The notes under the pieces were generated by a model that made no database searches, was not told the DNA's origin, and saw only the letters and a list, made by a program, of their open reading frames with translations. Source: Flavobacteriales bacterium (GTDB lineage: Bacteria > Bacteroidota > Bacteroidia > Flavobacteriales_C > GCA-002722245). From it: DNA of 50,468 nucleotides. The translations under genes were made by a program, and so were the position numbers. Shown in pieces: positions 38,777 to 48,468 of the stretch; within the stretch, counting starts at the first letter, position 1, and each line of letters starts with the position of its first letter. The stretch covers positions 1-50,468 of the forward strand of contig JAQXEE010000023.1 of the NCBI GenBank assembly GCA_029251005.1, given 5' to 3'.

Positions 38777-39598
38777 GTGTTAAAAACGGCTTTATATAAA
38801 GGTGCTAAAATTAATTATGAGCGAAAAGGAAACTCGAAGAGGACTGTTGTTTTATTGCATGGCTTTTTAGAGAATCATAAAGTTTGGGATGACTACACTA
38901 AAGTTTTGGCGAAAACCAATACAGTTTATTCAATTGATTTACCCGGGCATGGTTCAAGTGATTGTTTGGGTTATGTACAGTCTATGGAAGATATGGCTGG
39001 TTGTGTTCAGCAAGTGTTAAACGATAATCGAAAACGTAAAGCAGTAATAATTGGACACAGTTTGGGTGGTTATGTTGCTCTAGCGTTTGGAGATTTATAT
39101 CCAGATTCTTTAAATGGCTTGTGTTTATTTAATTCAACAGCGAAAGCAGATTCGATAGAAAAAGTGAAGTTTAGAAATCGAGCTATTGAAGTTGTGAAAG
39201 AAAATCATGAGTTGTTTATTAAAAGTGCAATCCCAAACCTATTTGTTGGGCCTAAAAATAACGCGATTCGTGGTGCAATTCGTAGAGTTTTAAATATGGC
39301 TTTAACAACTCCAAAGCAAGGAATATTAGCGACGTTGGAAGGAATGAAAATAAGAGCGGATCGTGAAATAATTCTTCGGTTTGCACCTTATCCAGTATTG
39401 TGTGTTGCTGGGAAACAGGATTTAGTTGTGCCTTGGCGTGTTTTGAAAAAGCAGAGTGAGTTGTGTGAAAATGGAAGTTTTCATCTTTCAGAAAAAGGAG
39501 GGCATATGTGTTTTTTTGAAGACAAGTATCCTTGCCTCAAAGTATTAGAAAAATTTGTGATTAGTTGTTACTCGAGTAAGAAACTACCTGTTTATTAA
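38777..39598 (+). CDS. Alpha/beta hydrolase
   Basis: The 273-residue protein begins at a GTG. It has VLLHGFLENHKVW for the oxyanion-hole region near residues 26-38, and the nucleophile elbow GHSLGGYV places the serine near residue 96. The aspartate is in GKQDLVVPW near 213-221 and the histidine in KGGHMCFFE near 240-248, so the triad is complete. It has no signal peptide and is cytoplasmic. The family covers esterases, lactonases and C-C hydrolases, and the substrate is unknown. Its 3' end overlaps the convergent FAD-protein gene by 15 bases. Confidence 0.88.
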   Translation: MLKTALYKGAKINYERKGNSKRTVVLLHGFLENHKVWDDYTKVLAKTNTVYSIDLPGHGSSDCLGYVQSMEDMAGCVQQVLNDNRKRKAVIIGHSLGGYVALAFGDLYPDSLNGLCLFNSTAKADSIEKVKFRNRAIEVVKENHELFIKSAIPNLFVGPKNNAIRGAIRRVLNMALTTPKQGILATLEGMKIRADREIILRFAPYPVLCVAGKQDLVVPWRVLKKQSELCENGSFHLSEKGGHMCFFEDKYPCLKVLEKFVISCYSSKKLPVY

Positions 39599-41092
39599 AC
39601 TAGCAGCATAAATTCCCGAATCAAGCGCTTCAAACATTAAGGGTAATCGCCCATTATCAACCCCTGAGAAATAAAAATTGTCTTTTTGAGTTTGATCGTT
39701 TCGGTCATTAAATAAGTATCCTTTTTCGGGAATAGGCATTGCATGGCCCATCACCTTAACATGGGCTGATTTGATGTTTTGTTCACAATTTGTATTGAAA
39801 TACTCGTTTAAAAAGGAAATTCCTTCTTGCACGATTAAGGATGGTTTAGCCATTATTTCGGGCATTTTAATGCGCTCCTTAGGGTTGAAACAAAGGTACA
39901 TTGTTAGCACTTTATTTTTTGTTTTTTGAGTGCCAGAATTCACAAACCCCACTAGGTTGTTGTTTACTCCTAACATATCATTTTGCCATTTTAAAGGTCC
40001 TTTGATTTCATTTTTTAACTCGAAATTAATGGCAACCCAAGCAGAGTAATTGGTGGCTTTAAATAGTTGATGGTATTGAGGGTATATAAATCGTAATGCA
40101 TTCTTCTGTCCAGCGTATATGATGTTTTTACTTACAACGGTTTGAACAATATTAGTTTGTGTGTTGAGGTATTTGGAATAGTAAAAATTATTTTTTCGTT
40201 CAATATGAAAAATGATGGAAGAAGATTTAACTTGTTCAGGCTTTAGTTGATCGTATAGTTTTTTAACGAAATAATAATTTCCTTCAGGTGGCGAGAATAA
40301 TTCTGGTTTATTTCTTCCATAATAATCTCTACATGCATAGTAATGTATTCCTGCTAATGCGGAAATTCTTGAACAATTAGCGCCGTAATCATCAATCATT
40401 TGATAATCGATACCTGTAATTAATTGTGGATCGTGAATGAGATATTTATCAATAAAATCGTAAAACGTGATATCATTTAAACCTTTAAATTTATTGTCAA
40501 TTAATCGGGTGGGCATTTTCATTTCACCAACATAAGGCGAAATCAAAGACAAGAAATCAGCTTTGTTTACACTCGATTTAATCGGGCTGTTGTTAAAACC
40601 TTCTCTAGTGTAACACGTTTCTTGATCCTCTTCGTTGATTAAAAACTGGGTGTCTTTAAATGTGAATTGACTTTTAAGGCTATCGAAACCAATAACATTC
40701 ATGTCTTCCAATAAACTCAAACCATCCTTTCCGTAATTGTCAGGATAAGATAAATCATAATGTGCACCCTGAGAGAATAAATTCCCATTAATGGAGGTAG
40801 CTCCAGAGCTTCCTCCAAGATTATCGTCCATCTCCATCAACAAAAAGTCATTATTATTAAGAGTTTTAGCAGCAGATAATCCTGCAATTCCTCCTCCAAT
40901 AATTAAGGTTTCTGTTTGTAGAGTTTGCGTGGATGGAATAGAAACAGCCTTCATGATTTTATGTCCTGTTTCCATATTGCTTGAAGCATAAATGGGAAAA
41001 TCAAGTACTGTCTTTTTGTTTTCGATATCCAAACAACCTGTTAAAGCAACACTTCCTAAAGCAGATAATTTCACAAAATGTCGCCTATTCAT
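39584..41092 (-). CDS. Tat-exported FAD-dependent oxidoreductase (amine-oxidase-like), predicted lipoprotein
   Basis: The 502-residue protein has a twin-arginine leader (RRHFVKLS, residues 3-10). That is followed by a lipobox LTGC with cysteine 20, so it is probably folded and loaded with FAD in the cytoplasm, then anchored in the envelope. The dinucleotide motif IIGGGIAGLSAAKTL lies near 64-78, and GSSGATSINGN follows as the second FAD contact. The C-terminal 'FSGVDNG' segment fits the flavin-containing amine-oxidase fold. It ends an operon containing SpeD and an aminopropyltransferase, so an envelope polyamine oxidase is a reasonable guess. It overlaps the preceding gene by 8 bases (ATGAATAG). 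Confidence 0.78.
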   Translation of the reverse strand: MNRRHFVKLSALGSVALTGCLDIENKKTVLDFPIYASSNMETGHKIMKAVSIPSTQTLQTETLIIGGGIAGLSAAKTLNNNDFLLMEMDDNLGGSSGATSINGNLFSQGAHYDLSYPDNYGKDGLSLLEDMNVIGFDSLKSQFTFKDTQFLINEEDQETCYTREGFNNSPIKSSVNKADFLSLISPYVGEMKMPTRLIDNKFKGLNDITFYDFIDKYLIHDPQLITGIDYQMIDDYGANCSRISALAGIHYYACRDYYGRNKPELFSPPEGNYYFVKKLYDQLKPEQVKSSSIIFHIERKNNFYYSKYLNTQTNIVQTVVSKNIIYAGQKNALRFIYPQYHQLFKATNYSAWVAINFELKNEIKGPLKWQNDMLGVNNNLVGFVNSGTQKTKNKVLTMYLCFNPKERIKMPEIMAKPSLIVQEGISFLNEYFNTNCEQNIKSAHVKVMGHAMPIPEKGYLFNDRNDQTQKDNFYFSGVDNGRLPLMFEALDSGIYAASLINR

Positions 41093-42173
41093 TTGCTATG
41101 ATTTTTTTTAGATTAGGATTCGTTTGACCAAACTTCCAAATAAAGCCATCAAGTACATAATGTGTTGCTTGAGGTAAGGTGAGAATGGCTGTAAAAAGTG
41201 CAATTAAAAACGGTGAATTTTGAATATTCGCCCAGTAAGGTGAAAATGATTCGAAGAACTCCTGTTTTTCAAGATTAATTAGCATATCCCATAAATATTC
41301 TTCTGAAAAAGCGAGTAAAAGGATAACTGAAAAAATTGAAAATACGTGAAGAATAACTTCTGGTTTAGGAATTTTTTTGTTTGATAAAAGATGTTGTTCT
41401 TCAACTTTATATTTCAAGATCAAGACTAAATATGGAATTCCATGTGCAACTACATTCGTTACAGAAAAGACAAAATCTGAATTGAAGTACACAATTCCTA
41501 AAAACCAGTTAAAGTAGGTTGTGGTTACCCAAATAATCTTTCCTAAAGCAAGGTCTTTTTTTCTGGAAATACTTACTTCATTTAGAATCCAAGCTAGTAA
41601 TATGGCAAAATAAATAATGTTTAAATACGAGAAGATATTGATGTCTTGTACAACTTGGTGCAATGGGAGGAAATCGTCTTCGGCAAACCAATTGAATAGC
41701 CGAGATTCATCAAAATGCCAAAAAATAATAGGGTAAAGCATTCCTATGTAGATGACGATTTTATCAAACAGTCTTTTTTTAGGACTATTCTGCTCTTTGT
41801 TTTTAAAGGAATACAAAGCCATAAATCCATACTGCTGTTTTATAAAGTGGTATACAGCAACGTAGGCTAGTATAGACCAATAAATTTTAATATTGATGTA
41901 TGAAAATGTGGTTAAAAAAGGGAGCAGTAAGCAAGGGATCCAGATTAGTTTAGCACGATGAATTGTGCGGTCATTCTTGTTTAGGTAAGTTCTGAAAATC
42001 GTACTCCATACATGACTAACATCAATTCCGACGATGAAAATAACCCATGCCCATAGTGGTAACGTTTGTTCCTGAATGTTACTGGAGAAAGCCCAAACCC
42101 AAACCAACCAAACAGGTACGAAAAGAAATAGCAAATCGGTTTTACGAGAAAATAGCCAGGACGATCTAGTCAT
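41085..42173 (-). CDS. Histidine-rich polytopic membrane protein of unknown function
   Basis: The 362-residue protein (from ATG 42173, since the open frame to 42266 would run into the preceding gene) has about eight to nine membrane helices. Conserved-looking histidines sit at residues 54 (DVSHVW), 109 (VYHFIKQQYG), 244 (AHGIPY) and 338 (ATHYVLDGFIWK), most at helix ends. That arrangement is reminiscent of membrane metal enzymes such as desaturases or carotenoid cleavage enzymes, but no known motif is matched. It overlaps the aminopropyltransferase gene by 8 bases (ATGACTAG) and the FAD gene by 8, so all three should be translated together. Function unknown. Confidence 0.75.
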   Translation of the reverse strand: MTRSSWLFSRKTDLLFLFVPVWLVWVWAFSSNIQEQTLPLWAWVIFIVGIDVSHVWSTIFRTYLNKNDRTIHRAKLIWIPCLLLPFLTTFSYINIKIYWSILAYVAVYHFIKQQYGFMALYSFKNKEQNSPKKRLFDKIVIYIGMLYPIIFWHFDESRLFNWFAEDDFLPLHQVVQDINIFSYLNIIYFAILLAWILNEVSISRKKDLALGKIIWVTTTYFNWFLGIVYFNSDFVFSVTNVVAHGIPYLVLILKYKVEEQHLLSNKKIPKPEVILHVFSIFSVILLLAFSEEYLWDMLINLEKQEFFESFSPYWANIQNSPFLIALFTAILTLPQATHYVLDGFIWKFGQTNPNLKKIIANE

Positions 42174-43719
42174 AAAAGCTTTGATTAAACGCAGTTCCTT
42201 TGATGTAGTATTTAAATAAAACAGGATTGTGTATTGAGTTAACCTCAATTCCTGATGTATCGCCAACTGTCTTTCCGAATTTGCACATCATTTGGAGTGC
42301 TTCTGTATTTAACCATTTGGTATTTTTAACGGGTAACTCTTTAATGGATGACAATTTTTCAATCATTTGATTTTTGTCATACAGTTGGGATCCAACAATC
42401 CAACCCCATTCACCAAAAGATTGGACATGATTATGAATTTGAAGCGTATTTAACCCAGCCGCCTCCATGGTTTTATTAATGCAGTAAAAAGATTTCGCTT
42501 GATAGTAAGGACTGGTTGCTTGGGTAATAATGACTCCATCTTGTTTTAGTCTTTTTTTACAGAATCGATACATCTCCTTCGTATAAAGCCTTGATAGTTC
42601 GATTGATCTTGGATCAGGAAAATCAATAATTATTAAATCATAATAACTAGAGTCATCTTCTAAAGCGATAAATGCATCTCCATTTTGAACGGTTACTTTA
42701 CTGTTTTGATAAGCGCCTCGGTTAAGCTCTTTGAAAATAGCGTTTTGAGCTCCGAAATTAGTCATGCCCGGATCTAAATCTATGATTTTAACTGATTCAA
42801 CTTCTTGGTACTTTAACACCTCCCGAATTGCACAACCATCTCCTCCACCAAGGATTAAAATATTTTTTTTACCTGAGTTTAGTAACATCGGTACATGTAC
42901 TAATGGCTCATGATAAAGCCATTCATCCATCGTATTGAGTTGCATACTATTGTTGAGGTATAAAATGTAATTGTGCTTTGATTTTGTAAGTGTTATTTTT
43001 TGATATTTGGTTTGTTCAGAGAAAACAACTTTGTCGCTATATCTGCTTTGTTCTCCAAACATGATAATTGGTTTCGCAAAGTAAACACCTAAGCCTATGG
43101 ATAATGAAATAAATATAATAGCTCCTAATAACCACTTTTTTAAGCGTTCATCTAACCGGTCTGAAAAATTGAAAAACAGTAAAATTGCAACAATTAAATT
43201 AATTGTACCTAATAAAAAAGGCGTGTAGGTTAATCCTAAATACGGTAATCCTATAAATGCAAAAAACAAACCTCCAAGTAAACTACCATAGTAGTCTTTT
43301 TCCATTACGCTGGAAATATTCGCTTTTAAATCGTGGTATCTACCATTGATTCTAGTAACTAATGGAATTTCTAGTCCAATAAGTAGTCCAACCAATATTG
43401 CTAAAGAATAAATGAATATTTCGACATATTCGGTTGTACCCATGAGTGAATAAACCAGCAGCGCACATAACGAGGTAAGGAAGGATAGGAGTAATTCCGA
43501 AGCGATAAAAAACTCAATGATGTTTTTGTTTATCGATCGACTAATTCTACTTCCAAGACCCATTGAGAAGAGCATGATCGATAATATAATCGTCCATTGA
43601 AAGACGGAGTTTCCAAGGAAGTAGGTAGCTAAAGTGGCCAATACATATTCTGAAACTATACCTGCTACACCTGTAGCAAATAATGAACTCATCAATATTT
43701 TCGAATCTGATAATTTCAT
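42166..43719 (-). CDS. Membrane-anchored spermidine synthase-like aminopropyltransferase
   Basis: The 517-residue protein has an N-terminal domain of six or seven membrane helices (residues about 5-215). Then comes a soluble aminopropyltransferase domain with GGGDG at 291-295, DLDP at 314-317 and IIDFPDP at 364-370, the binding and catalytic blocks of SpeE-type enzymes. The domain order is that of membrane-bound spermidine synthases seen in many bacteria. It would use decarboxylated SAM supplied by the speD gene of the same operon. The acceptor may be a membrane or cell-envelope amine and not free putrescine. It starts 3 bases after the small membrane protein gene and overlaps the next gene by 8. 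Confidence 0.85.
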   Translation of the reverse strand: MKLSDSKILMSSLFATGVAGIVSEYVLATLATYFLGNSVFQWTIILSIMLFSMGLGSRISRSINKNIIEFFIASELLLSFLTSLCALLVYSLMGTTEYVEIFIYSLAILVGLLIGLEIPLVTRINGRYHDLKANISSVMEKDYYGSLLGGLFFAFIGLPYLGLTYTPFLLGTINLIVAILLFFNFSDRLDERLKKWLLGAIIFISLSIGLGVYFAKPIIMFGEQSRYSDKVVFSEQTKYQKITLTKSKHNYILYLNNSMQLNTMDEWLYHEPLVHVPMLLNSGKKNILILGGGDGCAIREVLKYQEVESVKIIDLDPGMTNFGAQNAIFKELNRGAYQNSKVTVQNGDAFIALEDDSSYYDLIIIDFPDPRSIELSRLYTKEMYRFCKKRLKQDGVIITQATSPYYQAKSFYCINKTMEAAGLNTLQIHNHVQSFGEWGWIVGSQLYDKNQMIEKLSSIKELPVKNTKWLNTEALQMMCKFGKTVGDTSGIEVNSIHNPVLFKYYIKGTAFNQSFYD

Positions 43720-43722
43720 GGG

Positions 43723-44589
43723 TTACTTTCCAAAATAATGGGTGTCGTCGTTCATAAAATAAGAAGCTGGGGCGTTTTCTGAGTCGGCATATCCAACATC
43801 AAACAGACCTAAAAGAATAAATATCAATACTAAAGGCGCTAATTTTTTCGCCCATTTTAGCATTATATTTTTTGATTTAGCATTGGTTAAATCTGGAATT
43901 GTACGAGTTACTTCATCATCAAAAAAGATGTAAAAGATGTAAAGTGCTCCGGCAATAAGAAATATAATTCCGTAAGAGTATAAAAAATTAGTTCCTAAAA
44001 ATTGATGACTTAAATCAAAATGAATCTTTTGTGGTAAATGATCCGCTCTTGAATGTTTGGTGATGATTTGATAATAATATTTCCCAGAATCTGTTATATC
44101 AATATCATAACGCATATGGAACTCTGAATATGTACCATCTAAATCCCTTTCGTAAAAAAGATCTTTACTTGCGCCACAAATAAAATTCTTGTTTTCGTCT
44201 AAAATTAATGCAGTTACTGAACACCACTTATTATTAGTTCGGGGTAAATTATATTGTAGGGAGAGACTCTGTAATTCGGAAGAATTTGCTTCAATCGGAC
44301 CAATAAGACCACCTTCGTTCGAAATATCTCCAGAGATTATTGAAGGTGATGTGAAAGTGATTAAACTTTTTAATACGATTAGTGAAATTCCTAAAAGAAC
44401 TATAACTACTGCAATTGGGACGTTTTGCTCTCTGAAGGCTATTGTTTTCTGTTTTAAATTTTTTCTAATCTCTTTTCTTTTACTGTTGTCTTTTATTGCT
44501 CGTTCAGAATTGTTTTCTCGAACACTAGTTGCCATCGCTTCTCTAGCACGTCGTCTTTTTATGACTTCTTCTTGTCCTTTCGTTAACAT
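43723..44589 (-). CDS. Membrane protein with an extracytoplasmic domain, unknown function
   Basis: The 288-residue protein has a basic, helical N-terminus rich in K, R and E (residues 1-55). It has a first helix near 57-77, an exported domain of about 120 residues with alternating strands (LSLQYNLPRTNNKW, YDIDITDSGKYYY), and two further helices near 202-220 and 247-264. I cannot assign a family. The similar placement next to DUF350 and PspA genes hints at a subunit of the membrane-stress complex. It follows speD by 7 bases and precedes the aminopropyltransferase by 3. Confidence 0.7.
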   Translation of the reverse strand: MLTKGQEEVIKRRRAREAMATSVRENNSERAIKDNSKRKEIRKNLKQKTIAFREQNVPIAVVIVLLGISLIVLKSLITFTSPSIISGDISNEGGLIGPIEANSSELQSLSLQYNLPRTNNKWCSVTALILDENKNFICGASKDLFYERDLDGTYSEFHMRYDIDITDSGKYYYQIITKHSRADHLPQKIHFDLSHQFLGTNFLYSYGIIFLIAGALYIFYIFFDDEVTRTIPDLTNAKSKNIMLKWAKKLAPLVLIFILLGLFDVGYADSENAPASYFMNDDTHYFGK

Positions 44590-44596
44590 TTTAGGT

Positions 44597-44965
44597 TTAG
44601 ACTTCTGAAGGTTGATTAACTACATTTTCACCACGTTTGATGACCTGATGCTTAAAAACCTTGCAACCAAACTTTTCTTTCAAGTAGACTAAAGCTTTGT
44701 CATAATCCATGTATTCCGAGCAGGTAAACATATCTACAGCAGCGTAATTATGTTCTGGCCAGGTGTGAATTGCAAAATGGCTTTCCTCGATAACAACAAC
44801 TCCCGAAACACCTTGTGGAGCAAACTTATGAAATACTGATTTTACAATTGTAGCCCCAGCTATTTTCGCGGATTCATTTAAATGTTTTTCAACGTATTCA
44901 ATATTATCGATACTGCTTCTCGAACATTGTTCAAATTCAGCAATTATGTGCCAACCTAGTGTCAT
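44597..44965 (-). CDS. speD: S-adenosylmethionine decarboxylase proenzyme
   Basis: The 122-residue protein has the self-cleavage site EESHF with Ser-62, which becomes the pyruvoyl group. His-67 is in HTWPE and Cys-82 in FTCSEY, giving the complete class 1 SpeD set of residues. It produces decarboxylated SAM, the aminopropyl donor. Its ATG directly follows the TAA of the DUF350 gene (TAAATG), so expression is coupled. Having speD inside a PspA/DUF350 operon and next to a membrane aminopropyltransferase indicates a dedicated pathway separate from general polyamine synthesis. Confidence 0.94.
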   Translation of the reverse strand: MTLGWHIIAEFEQCSRSSIDNIEYVEKHLNESAKIAGATIVKSVFHKFAPQGVSGVVVIEESHFAIHTWPEHNYAAVDMFTCSEYMDYDKALVYLKEKFGCKVFKHQVIKRGENVVNQPSEV

Positions 44966-45817
44966 TTAGAAACACCAAGTAATTAGTAAAGCAACAGATA
45001 TGTAAGCCATCGCTTCAATTAAACCGGCACCAATATTTGGCTTTACTTGCCCAACTAATTCATCCTTTAAACTGTATCCAGAAAGTACAAATTTACCAGT
45101 GATTAATCGTGCAATTGGAATAAGGATAAATCCAATCACTATAAGCGATATAATAGAAGTAATTGCTTCAGAAAATAATTCGAAATGTATAGAAACTGCG
45201 TTTGAAACTATAATTGAGATAGCGATAATAGATCCAGAGTAACCAACACCTACTGCAACATTATCCTTTTCAATTTCAGTATGAATATCGTACGGAGTAA
45301 TAATATTATAAAGGATTGATGAAAGAATCAAAGCAACTTGAGCAATTCCCCAGTAGGCTAAAATCATTAAATTACTATCAGCACCTTTACTTGCACCCAA
45401 AATAATTAACCCTGTTGAAATATAGTTTGCAGCTTCAATAATACCTGTACCAGCATTTTGATCTTCTAAGATCTCCTTTTTGATTTTAAACTTGCTAAAA
45501 ATGATGAACTCATTAATAACAGTAGTAATGTTTAATAATAATATCGCTCCTAAACCATAAATTGCAATTGCGATTAAATCGGCTTGTAACGAAACATGTT
45601 CTCCTAAAAGAGCACTTCCAATAGCCATTACTAATCCAACAAAATATCCAACGTATGAAAAGGAAAAAGCTAAATTGTCTTTTTCTAATAGTTCATTAAT
45701 TGTGTTCAGTTTTGGGTGGAATAATTTATAAATTACTTTCCCTATAAAAACCAATATTAAACTCGCTAGGAAATAAAGGCTTGAGTTTCCAATCTCTTCA
45801 AAATTTATATGTTCCAT
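44966..45817 (-). CDS. DUF350-family membrane protein with two repeats (YjfL-like)
   Basis: The 283-residue protein has about eight helices arranged as two similar halves. Matching blocks are GIIEAANYISTGLIILGA and GLIEAMAYISVALLI, and YVGYFVGLVMAIGSA is matched by GVGYSGSIIAISIIV. This duplicated DUF350 layout corresponds to E. coli YjfL-type proteins. Its function is unknown, but DUF350 genes recur beside PspA-family and YjfI/YjfK-like genes, as here. It follows the lipoprotein gene by 2 bases and abuts speD with no gap. Confidence 0.85.
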   Translation of the reverse strand: MEHINFEEIGNSSLYFLASLILVFIGKVIYKLFHPKLNTINELLEKDNLAFSFSYVGYFVGLVMAIGSALLGEHVSLQADLIAIAIYGLGAILLLNITTVINEFIIFSKFKIKKEILEDQNAGTGIIEAANYISTGLIILGASKGADSNLMILAYWGIAQVALILSSILYNIITPYDIHTEIEKDNVAVGVGYSGSIIAISIIVSNAVSIHFELFSEAITSIISLIVIGFILIPIARLITGKFVLSGYSLKDELVGQVKPNIGAGLIEAMAYISVALLITWCF

Positions 45818-45819
45818 AA

Positions 45820-46512
45820 TTATTTTCCGTATCCAAATCCACTACCTCTCCCACTTCTTCGGGAGGAGCTAGATCTTCGGGATGAATTCCAATTTGTATT
45901 TCTTGCTTTTCGTTGGTAAAAATCTGGTCTGTTTTTTTGGGTGACTTTACTACTTGTTCCGTAATAATTTCCACCTTGATAACCTGACCCATAAAATGAA
46001 CGATTAGTTCCATAGTAACTACCATAGTAACTGCGATGCATTCCATAATAAGCAGGGTGGTAACCTAAGCCAAAAACACTCCTTAAAAACATGTAACGAC
46101 CGTAAAACACCCAAATACTTTGGTCTCCATTTCCTTGCCAGTGGCCGTATCGCGAATTACCTATGTAGTTGTCATAACCAGCAGGTATAGCAGCTTTAGT
46201 GACTTTTCCAGTGCTATCTTTTGATACAATTTGCATCCCAAGATTATTTTCATTTTTCTTAAAAAATTCGTAGCTAACAGGTAGAAATTTCGTTTTACTT
46301 TGTGTGATTTTGTCAGATTTAGAAACTTTAACAACCGAATATTTATGATAATGCCCATCGTTTTTAGCGTCCATGTCATCCAGAATGATCGTATATGACT
46401 TCTCATTACTCATACTCTTAATCATCAGATTAACAGGGTTTTCAATGTAGTGGTCTTGCCCATTACATCCAGCAAAAAGTAGCACAATTAAGACAAAAAA
46501 TATTTTTTTCAT
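45820..46512 (-). CDS. Low-complexity lipoprotein of the PspA-like operon
   Basis: From the ATG at 46512 the protein has 230 residues and starts MKKIFFVLIVLLFAGCNG with a lipobox (FAGC, cysteine 16). The middle is ordinary. The C-terminal about 70 residues are rich in Tyr, Gly, Ser and Arg, with repeated YYG, SFYGSG and SSRRSG units, which suggests a disordered, possibly membrane- or polymer-contacting tail. The reading frame extends to 46599, but the lipoprotein start is decisive. It occupies the place of YjfM-type secreted proteins in the E. coli cluster, but I cannot show homology. It follows the DUF4178 gene by 4 bases. Confidence 0.72.
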   Translation of the reverse strand: MKKIFFVLIVLLFAGCNGQDHYIENPVNLMIKSMSNEKSYTIILDDMDAKNDGHYHKYSVVKVSKSDKITQSKTKFLPVSYEFFKKNENNLGMQIVSKDSTGKVTKAAIPAGYDNYIGNSRYGHWQGNGDQSIWVFYGRYMFLRSVFGLGYHPAYYGMHRSYYGSYYGTNRSFYGSGYQGGNYYGTSSKVTQKNRPDFYQRKARNTNWNSSRRSSSSRRSGRGSGFGYGK

Positions 46513-46516
46513 GAAA

Positions 46517-47053
46517 TTATTTCTCTGGTGAAGATAGGAAATTTGAGAATTCAAATTCTTTAACATATCTACCGTGCACTCCGTCAATTTCAGTTTCACT
46601 CCAACGGTTAAGAGATATGAATTCGGATTCGTCGCCGTTGTTAAATACCCAATTCACGAATTTAGACCAATCGTCGTCGTCATTTACACTTTTACAGTGT
46701 CCTAAAAACTCGTCGGATAAAAAGTATTCAACGCCTTTGTAAACTATTTTTTTTGGTGGAGAGTCTGTTTCTACAATGGTTTGTTTTACATCTCTACCCA
46801 AATCAAACATTTTAATTTCTGAGCTTACATCCAACTTTAAAGTTGGAGATGTATTAACGTGTAAAAATGAAGATACACTACCATTCTCAATAGTGTATTC
46901 AAAGGAAAATTGATTATTCCCCCAATCGTATTCAGTTTTATCTTTAACAATCCAAGATTGAAGGTCGTATTCTAAAATGCAACCGACACTCAAATTTCGA
47001 ATAGATAAATCAACTATTTTTTTTTCTTTTTTGAAAAAATCAAAAAGTCCCAT
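46517..47053 (-). CDS. DUF4178-family protein
   Basis: The protein has 178 residues from the ATG at 47053 (MGLFDFFKKEKK), a start chosen because amphipathic GLFDFFKKEK openings are usual for this family. The body has DLSIRNLSVGCILEYDLQSW and WIVKDKTEYDWGN segments, then a beta-rich C-terminus ending in GRYVKEFEF, as in DUF4178 proteins. It is soluble and probably membrane-peripheral through its amphipathic start. It corresponds in position to YjfK of the E. coli cluster. Its 5' end overlaps the candidate 50-residue membrane ORF, and it precedes the lipoprotein by 4 bases. Confidence 0.78.
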   Translation of the reverse strand: MGLFDFFKKEKKIVDLSIRNLSVGCILEYDLQSWIVKDKTEYDWGNNQFSFEYTIENGSVSSFLHVNTSPTLKLDVSSEIKMFDLGRDVKQTIVETDSPPKKIVYKGVEYFLSDEFLGHCKSVNDDDDWSKFVNWVFNNGDESEFISLNRWSETEIDGVHGRYVKEFEFSNFLSSPEK

Positions 47054-47166
47054 ATTAAAGATTGTTTTCCAATAAAACACCCCACAATTAAACCAATAAA
47101 AAGAGCACCAATTATAGTTCCAATTGTAAAAAAGTATCGAAGAAAAGACAGGGCGAGAATAAACAT
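47014..47166 (-). CDS. Candidate small membrane protein (50 residues) with glycine-zipper helix
   Basis: A short frame in the only large gap of the operon (47054-47210) encodes 50 residues. They consist of a hydrophobic core with glycines spaced G16, G20, G25, G29 and G33, a pattern seen in oligomerising membrane helices. A lysine-rich tail (FSKKKKK) follows. It ends in a TAG at 47014 and overlaps the DUF4178 start by 40 bases in another frame. All other junctions in the operon are tight, so a real small gene is attractive. No RBS supports it, and the lysine tail arises from the DUF4178 coding sequence read in another frame, so chance is a fair alternative. Confidence 0.4.
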   Translation of the reverse strand: MFILALSFLRYFFTIGTIIGALFIGLIVGCFIGKQSLIWDFLIFSKKKKK

Positions 47167-47210
47167 TCCCGCCACTGTAATTAATTTATGAATTGTTTTT
47201 ATAGACTAGA

Positions 47211-47909
47211 TTAATTATCTAGTCCCATTTTTTTCTTTAATTCATCTAAAGATGACGATGATGTTTCATCTTCTAAAACGGTATCAATTTCTTCATCGAT
47301 TGATTTAGACTCGTTTGCAATTTCACCGTAAGACTCAGCCAGAGCTTCTTCTTGCGCTACTTTTTCTTTCATTTTCTCTAACATAGAAACTGTTCCAGTT
47401 GAGTCAATTTGAGAAAGCTGTTTGTTTAGTTTAGCTGTAGCAGTACTCACTTTTACTCTAGCTTTTAACGTCTTTAATTCGTTTTCCCACTTGCTAACGT
47501 TCGATCTTATTTTTTTAACATTTTGATCTAATTGAGAGGTCGAAGATTCGAATTTTTGAAGTTCACTTTTTACTCTTTCTAAAGATTCAAGATTTTCATC
47601 CTTTCTTCTAAGAGCTTCACTTGCTAACCGATCAGCTTCTTCAGGAGCAATCGACCCTGATTGTGCTTTTTTTAGAATAAGCATTGCTTTTCTTTCGTAA
47701 TCTTTGGCTACCTCTTGATGCTTTTTAATATCACCACGAGATCTTATTTCCATTGCTTTAACTTCCGCTAAAGCCTGAAGGCTTTTATCAAGATCCGTCT
47801 TCATGTCTCTAATCCCTTGTTCCGTTAATTTGATTGGGTCTTCTAATTTATCGATTACAGAATGCGCTTCTGCTTGACCAATTTTGAATAATCTTTTGAA
47901 AATGCTCAT
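47211..47909 (-). CDS. PspA/IM30-family membrane-stress protein
   Basis: The 232-residue protein begins MSIFKRLFKIGQAEAHSVID, the amphipathic N-terminal helix that binds membranes in PspA/Vipp1 proteins. LEDPIKLTEQGIRDMKTDLD follows, matching the conserved start of the coiled coil. About residues 25-195 form a long helical hairpin rich in K, E and A, and the final helix (EIDTVLEDETSSSSLDELKKKMG) is acidic. ESCRT-III-like PspA proteins polymerise on damaged membranes. It is the second gene of the operon, 12 bases after the YjfI-like gene, and corresponds to E. coli YjfJ. Confidence 0.93.
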   Translation of the reverse strand: MSIFKRLFKIGQAEAHSVIDKLEDPIKLTEQGIRDMKTDLDKSLQALAEVKAMEIRSRGDIKKHQEVAKDYERKAMLILKKAQSGSIAPEEADRLASEALRRKDENLESLERVKSELQKFESSTSQLDQNVKKIRSNVSKWENELKTLKARVKVSTATAKLNKQLSQIDSTGTVSMLEKMKEKVAQEEALAESYGEIANESKSIDEEIDTVLEDETSSSSLDELKKKMGLDN

Positions 47910-47921
47910 AATAGTATAGTT

Positions 47922-48317
47922 TTAGTTTTTTGAAAATTTGATTAATTCTTCTGAATATTCACTTAATAATAAGCTAAGTGAGTTAATAGAGCCTTCTAGT
48001 TCGTTTAGGTCTAAACTTTCTAATTGAAGCGTATCTCTAAAAATAACTTTGTCGCCTGTTTCATTTAAAACAAATGCTCCATGTACGATGTCTCTATTCT
48101 TTTTTAATAATTCCTTAAATATACTGCCATTTCCTTTCGGAACATCAAACATGTTTTGTTCCATGATTAAAATTGGGTCAGCACATCCAAACACTAAATT
48201 ATAAATCCCCGCCCTTTCGTCATTAATTACAAGAAGTTGGTTTTCATCATCCTGAATGGAAATGTCGTGGCCTAATTCCACGAGATATGTTTTTACTTTT
48301 TCGAAATTGTTTTTCAT
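47922..48317 (-). CDS. YjfI-like DUF2170 protein
   Basis: The 131-residue soluble protein has an alpha/beta pattern with CADPILIMEQNMF in the centre and GAFVLNETGDKVIFRDTLQLESLDLNEL in the C-terminal half. DUF2170/YjfI proteins have similar length and layout, and the neighbour order (YjfI, then PspA/YjfJ) matches E. coli. It has no signal or membrane segment. It is the first gene of a 10-11 gene operon; a -7-like TACATTTA (48344-48351) lies 26 bases upstream of its ATG. Confidence 0.75.
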   Translation of the reverse strand: MKNNFEKVKTYLVELGHDISIQDDENQLLVINDERAGIYNLVFGCADPILIMEQNMFDVPKGNGSIFKELLKKNRDIVHGAFVLNETGDKVIFRDTLQLESLDLNELEGSINSLSLLLSEYSEELIKFSKN

Positions 48318-48437: not shown

Positions 48438-48468
48438 TCAATAATGCAAATAATATTTGCATCATTGA
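48438..48468. promoter_or_regulatory. 31-base near-perfect palindrome in the divergent intergenic region
   Basis: The core ATGCAAATA-A-TATTTGCAT (48444-48462) is perfect, and the flanks TCAAT/ATTGA extend it to 14 of 15 matched pairs. It lies in the 474-base gap (48318-48791) between the PspA-like operon and a surface-protein gene, about 121 bases upstream of the former. It could be an operator controlling either. The rest of the gap is AT-rich and shows no gene, apart from a 23-codon frame that I reject. Confidence 0.45.

Follow-up and report, generated by a model that had tools for sequence, protein, structure and literature searches.

A PspA operon of a Flavobacteriales bacterium extended by a conserved SpeD, membrane aminopropyltransferase, flavoprotein and HisTM module

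In the phage shock protein (PSP) operons described by Ravi et al. (2024, PMC11237479), a CesT/Tir-PspA dyad is found in runs of six to seven genes with a seven-transmembrane (7TM) spermidine synthase, an 8TM DUF350 protein, a lipoprotein and a DUF4178 protein, the type example of PSP operon group 2 being AAN56744-AAN56747. The proposal made for such PspA-polyamine operons is that they connect membrane stress with aminopropylation, without a product being identified (Ravi et al. 2024, PMC11237479). A second point of comparison is the yjfIJKLMC cluster of Escherichia coli, whose YjfC is described in a citing text as a peptide-spermidine ligase (Pederick et al. 2023, as cited in PMC10948618). Here we analyze a 50,468-nucleotide stretch from a Flavobacteriales bacterium (contig JAQXEE010000023.1, assembly GCA_029251005.1; hereafter the window), in which ten genes run on the minus strand from 39584 to 48317. 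The run ends in genes for a membrane protein that we call HisTM and for a predicted exported flavin adenine dinucleotide (FAD) protein. We propose that it encodes a system for aminopropylation at the membrane in which PspA serves as the scaffold and to which an exported oxidase and HisTM belong, a reading whose substrate and oxidase chemistry we infer and whose chances of being right or wrong we judge to be evenly balanced.

The window contains the families of PSP operon group 2 in the same kind of operon (PMC11237479), with a probable counterpart in the case of the lipoprotein. Its CesT/Tir-PspA dyad is accompanied by a synthase with an N-terminal domain of about seven TM segments (seven predicted), by a DUF4178 protein and by a YjfL-type 8TM DUF350 protein, the only one encoded in the genome, for which hydropathy analysis gave seven segments over the threshold where eight are expected. 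The window lipoprotein, which matched no Pfam or NCBIfam family, stands where Ravi et al. place the lipoprotein Ctha_1186 and by this positional argument is probably its counterpart; a relationship to the small TM protein "YYHK" that other clusters encode was rejected for lack of a profile match. Relative to group 2, the window has five additions in a single run: SpeD, a TM/beta-sandwich protein (g7), a small TM open reading frame (ORF), HisTM and the FAD oxidase. With the polyamine-related variants of Ravi et al. 2024, which contain band-7/SHOCT, SpeD and polyamine oxidase, it has SpeD, the oxidase and DUF350 in common, and it differs from them in having PspA/CesT in place of band-7 and in possessing HisTM. 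The gene order in Novosphingobium ES2-1 is SPFH/SHOCT-DUF4178-DUF4178-DUF350-synthase-FAD-SpeD, and a band-7/SPFH protein occupies the place of PspA in several phyla, a replacement that indicates a membrane-scaffold role. Contig 157 of the same genome carries another CesT-PspA dyad (L180, 4549-5663), which has no synthase with it. When we searched the literature for the full cluster, Ravi et al. 2024 was the only hit.

The E. coli yjfIJKLMC cluster resembles the window in that DUF350 and lipoprotein genes come after PspA and that a polyamine-linked enzyme is present, and an earlier note, made from the DNA sequence alone, had matched the first five genes of the operon to this cluster in order and type. 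The match does not hold. PspA and DUF350 are the only shared Pfam families, those of YjfI (DUF2170, PF09938), YjfK (DUF2491), YjfM (DUF1190) and YjfC (GSP_synth) are all absent from the window, and YjfL precedes YjfM, so that the lipoprotein and DUF350 genes stand in swapped order in the window. Because the families differ, we rejected the equation of the two operons. Calling the first gene YjfI-like is right at the superfamily level, because Ravi et al. (2024, PMC11237479) assign YjfI, too, to the CesT/Tir superfamily, and wrong at the family level, where the protein belongs to PF22550 and not to DUF2170. In contrast, the view that a decarboxylated S-adenosylmethionine (SAM) and aminopropyl module takes the place that the YjfC ligase has in E. 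coli is supported, and this operon type has been published (PMC11237479).

The ORF check located all ten genes where the earlier note had placed them, and all ten are kept in another genome of the genus (G004), where protein identity is 90–97% except for g7 (approximately 40%); genome G003 retains eight of them, from DUF4178 through FAD. After gene starts were corrected by comparison with relatives, the junctions were, in order, gaps of 12, 157, 4, 2, 0, 7 and 3 bases followed by two 8-base overlaps. The single large gap noted before is therefore present, although it is not empty, as it holds an eleventh, small membrane-protein ORF. Pfam and NCBIfam searches, which were used to assign the window proteins to families (Table 1), upheld the identifications of PspA, DUF4178, duplicated DUF350, SpeD, membrane aminopropyltransferase and FAD protein. 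The ten-gene minus-strand operon is confirmed as real and more than a product of chance, and we are highly confident that its genes form one functional module. At its downstream end, the FAD gene shares its last 15 bases (39584–39598) with the end of a convergent alpha/beta hydrolase-like gene (38777–39598).

Table 1. Features of the operon region, listed in the direction of transcription after the upstream palindrome.
Feature	Position in window	Strand	Evidence
Palindrome upstream of first gene, possible operator	48438..48468	.	Core conserved in G004
CesT/Tir-like chaperone (CesT_Tir_1, PF22550)	47922..48317	-	181.8 bits, cut-off 27; 96% identity in G004
PspA/IM30	47211..47909	-	PF04012 (PspA_IM30), 142.2 bits
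Small membrane-protein ORF, eleventh, missed earlier	47014..47166	-	Hydrophobic frame kept in G004; counterparts in relatives
DUF4178 protein	46517..47053	-	50.6 bits, cut-off 25
Lipoprotein with GYS-rich tail	45820..46512	-	Lipobox LFAGC by eye; no Pfam family
Duplicated DUF350 protein, YjfL-like	44966..45817	-	PF03994, two stretches, 167.6 bits
SpeD, S-adenosylmethionine decarboxylase, short prokaryotic class	44597..44965	-	AdoMet_dc / TIGR03330, 138.2 bits, cut-off 75.65
g7, TM / beta-sandwich / TM / TM protein	43723..44589	-	No family; hhalign match to Zn-ribbon-DUF4178 protein
Membrane spermidine synthase-like aminopropyltransferase	42166..43719	-	PRK03612, 531.2 bits, cut-off 472
HisTM (g9), integral membrane protein	41085..42173	-	No Pfam/NCBIfam family
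FAD oxidase (g10) of twin-arginine translocation type, amine-oxidase superfamily, with lipobox	39584..41092	-	NAD_binding_8 FAD domain; RR motif

The association of these families in other genomes, which had been set beforehand as a test that could refute the module, is strong and spans several phyla. A genome-wide scan for HisTM returned at least 539 relatives, from which 80 loci were kept; conditional on the presence of HisTM, the FAD gene was found nearby in 67 of the 80, the membrane synthase in 62, DUF350 in 53, DUF4178 in 51 and SpeD in 49. The synthase is also present in 61 of the 67 loci that contain FAD. These HisTM loci are distributed over phyla that include Bacteroidota, Acidobacteriota, Pseudomonadota, Melainabacteria, Planctomycetota and Myxococcota, and one belongs to a Leptospiraceae bacterium. 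The converse test used an independent sample of 395 Bacteroidota genomes, of which 11 encode a module-type HisTM and 15 the FAD gene. FAD is present in all 11 HisTM genomes, and the synthase, DUF350, a DUF4178-type gene and SpeD adjoin the FAD gene in 15 of 15. Furthermore, SpeD is single-copy and located inside the cluster in each of the 16 module-bearing Bacteroidota genomes tested (14 of the 15 FAD-bearing sample genomes plus G003 and G004). In one Solitalea locus (L092, 1883-10032), the zinc-ribbon-DUF4178, small TM and DUF350 genes are tandemly duplicated within the module.

That the PspA half and the HisTM-FAD half became neighbors by an accident of one lineage is very improbable and already hard to sustain. 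The single-operon form does occur in few genera, the halves being convergent in others, as such an accident would have it. Set against this are 14 loci that contain CesT, PspA, synthase, HisTM and FAD in one stretch, 12 of them with SpeD, and the recurrence of the one-strand form with a single synthase outside the window, in relatives from Crocinitomix (L066) and, from DUF4178 onward, Aureispira (L068/L072). In a tree of the synthases, the clade associated with PspA and the lipoprotein, which includes the window protein, is separate from a multi-phylum zinc-ribbon clade.

Both enzymes needed for aminopropyl transfer appear intact. SpeD scores above the TIGR03330 equivalog cut-off and has the E61-S62-H63 self-cleavage site of that class, with H67 and W69 also conserved. 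The synthase retains its YHE, GGGDG and DFPDP motifs, which nearly all copies in relatives keep as well. The window genome contains one copy of SpeD and one true synthase, both in this operon; a weak match on contig 46 that suggested a second spermidine synthase was rejected as a methyltransferase. Upstream of HisTM in L049 (7764-8987), L050 (7498-8970), L054 (7406-9001), L058 (7766-9001) and L076 (7577-8989), synthase-like proteins have lost GGGDG and are probable pseudoenzymes kept as partners. Judging by its title and by the way Ravi and colleagues present it, the 2019 work of Li et al. (Biochem J 476:2579) reportedly concerns SpeD clusters without a polyamine role; the window is similar in having SpeD within a cluster whose purpose may be other than making spermidine.

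These intact motifs would also suit a module whose task is to stabilize the membrane by making a free polyamine, spermidine or another, when needed, with the FAD protein as an ordinary polyamine oxidase that removes the excess. We consider this alternative unlikely, though a serious contender, and polyamine sensing was indeed one of the options raised by Ravi et al. (PMC11237479). The window genome encodes NspC above the cut-off together with a carboxynorspermidine synthase-like (CANSDH) gene on the same contig, and G003 also has NspC above its cut-off, so that bulk spermidine in these two genomes probably comes from another source. Moreover, an export-type oxidase, HisTM, DUF350 and g7 would be superfluous for the production of free spermidine. 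Most other module-bearing genomes, including most relatives outside the genus, have no clear NspC; the argument from a separate spermidine source is therefore not transferable to them, and there the module could be the sole source of spermidine. The earlier suggestion that the product is other than ordinary spermidine accordingly gains support in this genome, from the NspC/CANSDH route and from the confinement of SpeD and synthase to the operon; this support does not extend to most of the others. The operon product here is most likely not bulk spermidine.

The FAD protein carries an RR motif, a signal sequence and a lipobox, all recognized by eye, and the top PDB matches of its profile are to the polyamine oxidase FMS1 (E 4.6e-9, confined to the FAD domain). 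From its sequence, it is best called an amine-oxidase-superfamily flavoprotein and a candidate polyamine oxidase. Its neighbor HisTM matched nothing in Pfam, NCBIfam or the PDB sequences. A first HisTM model from 19 rows (predicted local distance difference test score, pLDDT, 67) was too poor for searching and was replaced by one from 81 sequences, which reached a pLDDT of 94.2 and a predicted template modeling (pTM) score of 0.91. Foldseek searches of the PDB with this model matched no solved fold (best E 0.73), predicted cellular structures not being among those searched. The 81 rows include distant members at approximately 20% identity, yet D51, H54, Y63, H109, Q113, Y121, Y142, H244, Y248, H338, Y339, D342 and W346 are identical in all of them. 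Most of these residues lie in predicted helices, and together they possibly form a shared buried, putative metal-binding site. Distant HisTM relatives of 390–412 amino acids and approximately 20% identity also occur without partner genes in other families of the phylum (L036-L041, L044).

We tentatively suggest that HisTM represents a new family of membrane enzymes, that its fold is new and holds a buried D/H/H/Q/H/Y/H/D site that probably binds metal, and that with the exported FAD oxidase it may finish a covalent aminopropyl modification of an envelope lipid or protein, guided by PspA or, in other phyla, by band-7 proteins; we rate this full proposal, which involves a modification not known in bacteria, as unlikely to hold in all its parts. 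A different function, in which the substrate of FAD and HisTM is a lipid or quinone of the membrane and only shared regulation connects them with the aminopropyl genes, would account for HisTM genes that lack the neighbors of the module (L048, L053, L055), for the Flammeovirga loci L062, L065 and L085, where HisTM is linked to FAD and DUF350x2 without synthase or SpeD, and for the restriction of the amine-oxidase likeness to the FAD domain. It is poorly compatible with the constancy of the synthase at HisTM loci with FAD (61/67) and beside the FAD genes of the Bacteroidota sample (15/15), and we regard it as improbable.

Several findings weigh against the membrane aminopropylation system as we propose it. 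The window FAD protein falls below the Pfam Amino_oxidase (PF01593) cut-off (14.5 vs 19.8), a threshold that its relative L025 passes (35.9), and the catalytic lysine of amine oxidases is not obvious by eye, in a protein whose oxidase alignments cover the FAD domain only. The CANSDH match, on which the separate spermidine route partly depends, lies below its equivalog cut-off (395.9 vs 800). Some HisTM genes stand alone, with the FAD gene located elsewhere; of five such genomes that were checked, four have a FAD gene, and these four include three of the four genomes in which none is linked to HisTM. PspA-synthase operons also exist without FAD or HisTM (L182, L188, L193, L200, L201). Finally, about ten related loci from Flavobacteriales contain two synthases each, and in them a [synthase-HisTM-FAD] group converges on a [synthase-DUF350x2-lipoprotein-DUF4178-SpeD-PspA-CesT] group; because these halves are on opposite strands, they must be separate transcripts there, though neighbors. 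The earlier expectation of one transcript for the two halves thus survives as co-location, which is robust, and not as a universal single transcript.

Outside PspA-type clusters, the DUF4178 gene encodes a zinc-ribbon-DUF4178-TM-beta-sandwich-TM protein, and g7 matches the C-terminal half of this fused protein (hhalign P 96, E 3.8e-9), so that the window carries a zinc-ribbon-DUF4178-type protein as two genes. Between the window and G004 this region is approximately 91% identical in DNA except for g7, which is 29–59% identical, with sharp edges at the SpeD end and the synthase start (43723–44618), and three alleles within the genus are about equally distant (40–44%). The pattern resembles the outcome of allele replacement or of strong diversification and suggests that g7 faces something variable. 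The small ORF encodes 50 amino acids from an ATG (translation MFILALSFLRYFFTIGTIIGALFIGLIVGCFIGK) and overlaps the DUF4178 gene by 40 bases. Its reading frame is conserved and hydrophobic in G004, and hydrophobic TM ORFs of 45–58 amino acids occupy the same place in L042, L043, L182, L049, L058, L061, L066 and L079; relative to G004, the window ORF has lost a stop codon before DUF4178.

Candidate control elements lie at two points. The palindrome upstream of the operon has the core ATGCAAATATTATTTGCAT in the window, and a TTGCAAATATTATTTGCAA-like core is kept in G004 inside an otherwise diverged intergenic region; the element is a possible operator. After PspA, a conserved GC-rich hairpin of nine pairs (47152–47173), which overlaps the start of the small ORF and is followed by a weak T run, is possibly an attenuator between PspA and the remaining genes. 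A consensus promoter scan was uninformative (46 found vs 43 expected), and an Rfam search gave no match.

We propose that the operon arose when a group 2-like PspA/CesT polyamine-type envelope operon merged with a module of SpeD, membrane synthase, FAD oxidase and HisTM that is conserved in its own right. SpeD, as is usual for its family, would make decarboxylated SAM, and the membrane synthase, given its intact catalytic motifs and TM domain, may move the aminopropyl group onto an amine at or in the inner membrane. PspA, CesT, DUF4178/g7, DUF350 and the small TM protein would build the complex on the membrane and couple it to the state of the envelope, a role extrapolated from Ravi et al., and the exported FAD protein and HisTM would oxidize or complete the product on the outer face.

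The known PSP-polyamine operon is in this way extended by a conserved SpeD/oxidase/HisTM module, and the window and its relatives provide a fuller parts list, consisting of SpeD, synthase, exported oxidase, HisTM, g7 and the small TM protein. HisTM itself emerges as a widespread, unannotated membrane family without a solved-fold match, and in all Bacteroidota genomes with the module that were tested, SpeD belongs to this cluster alone. Because this genus probably has a separate spermidine route, the product of the operon can be sought by difference, and because the core module occurs in culturable Flavobacterium, Pedobacter and Mucilaginibacter, the question is open to experiment.

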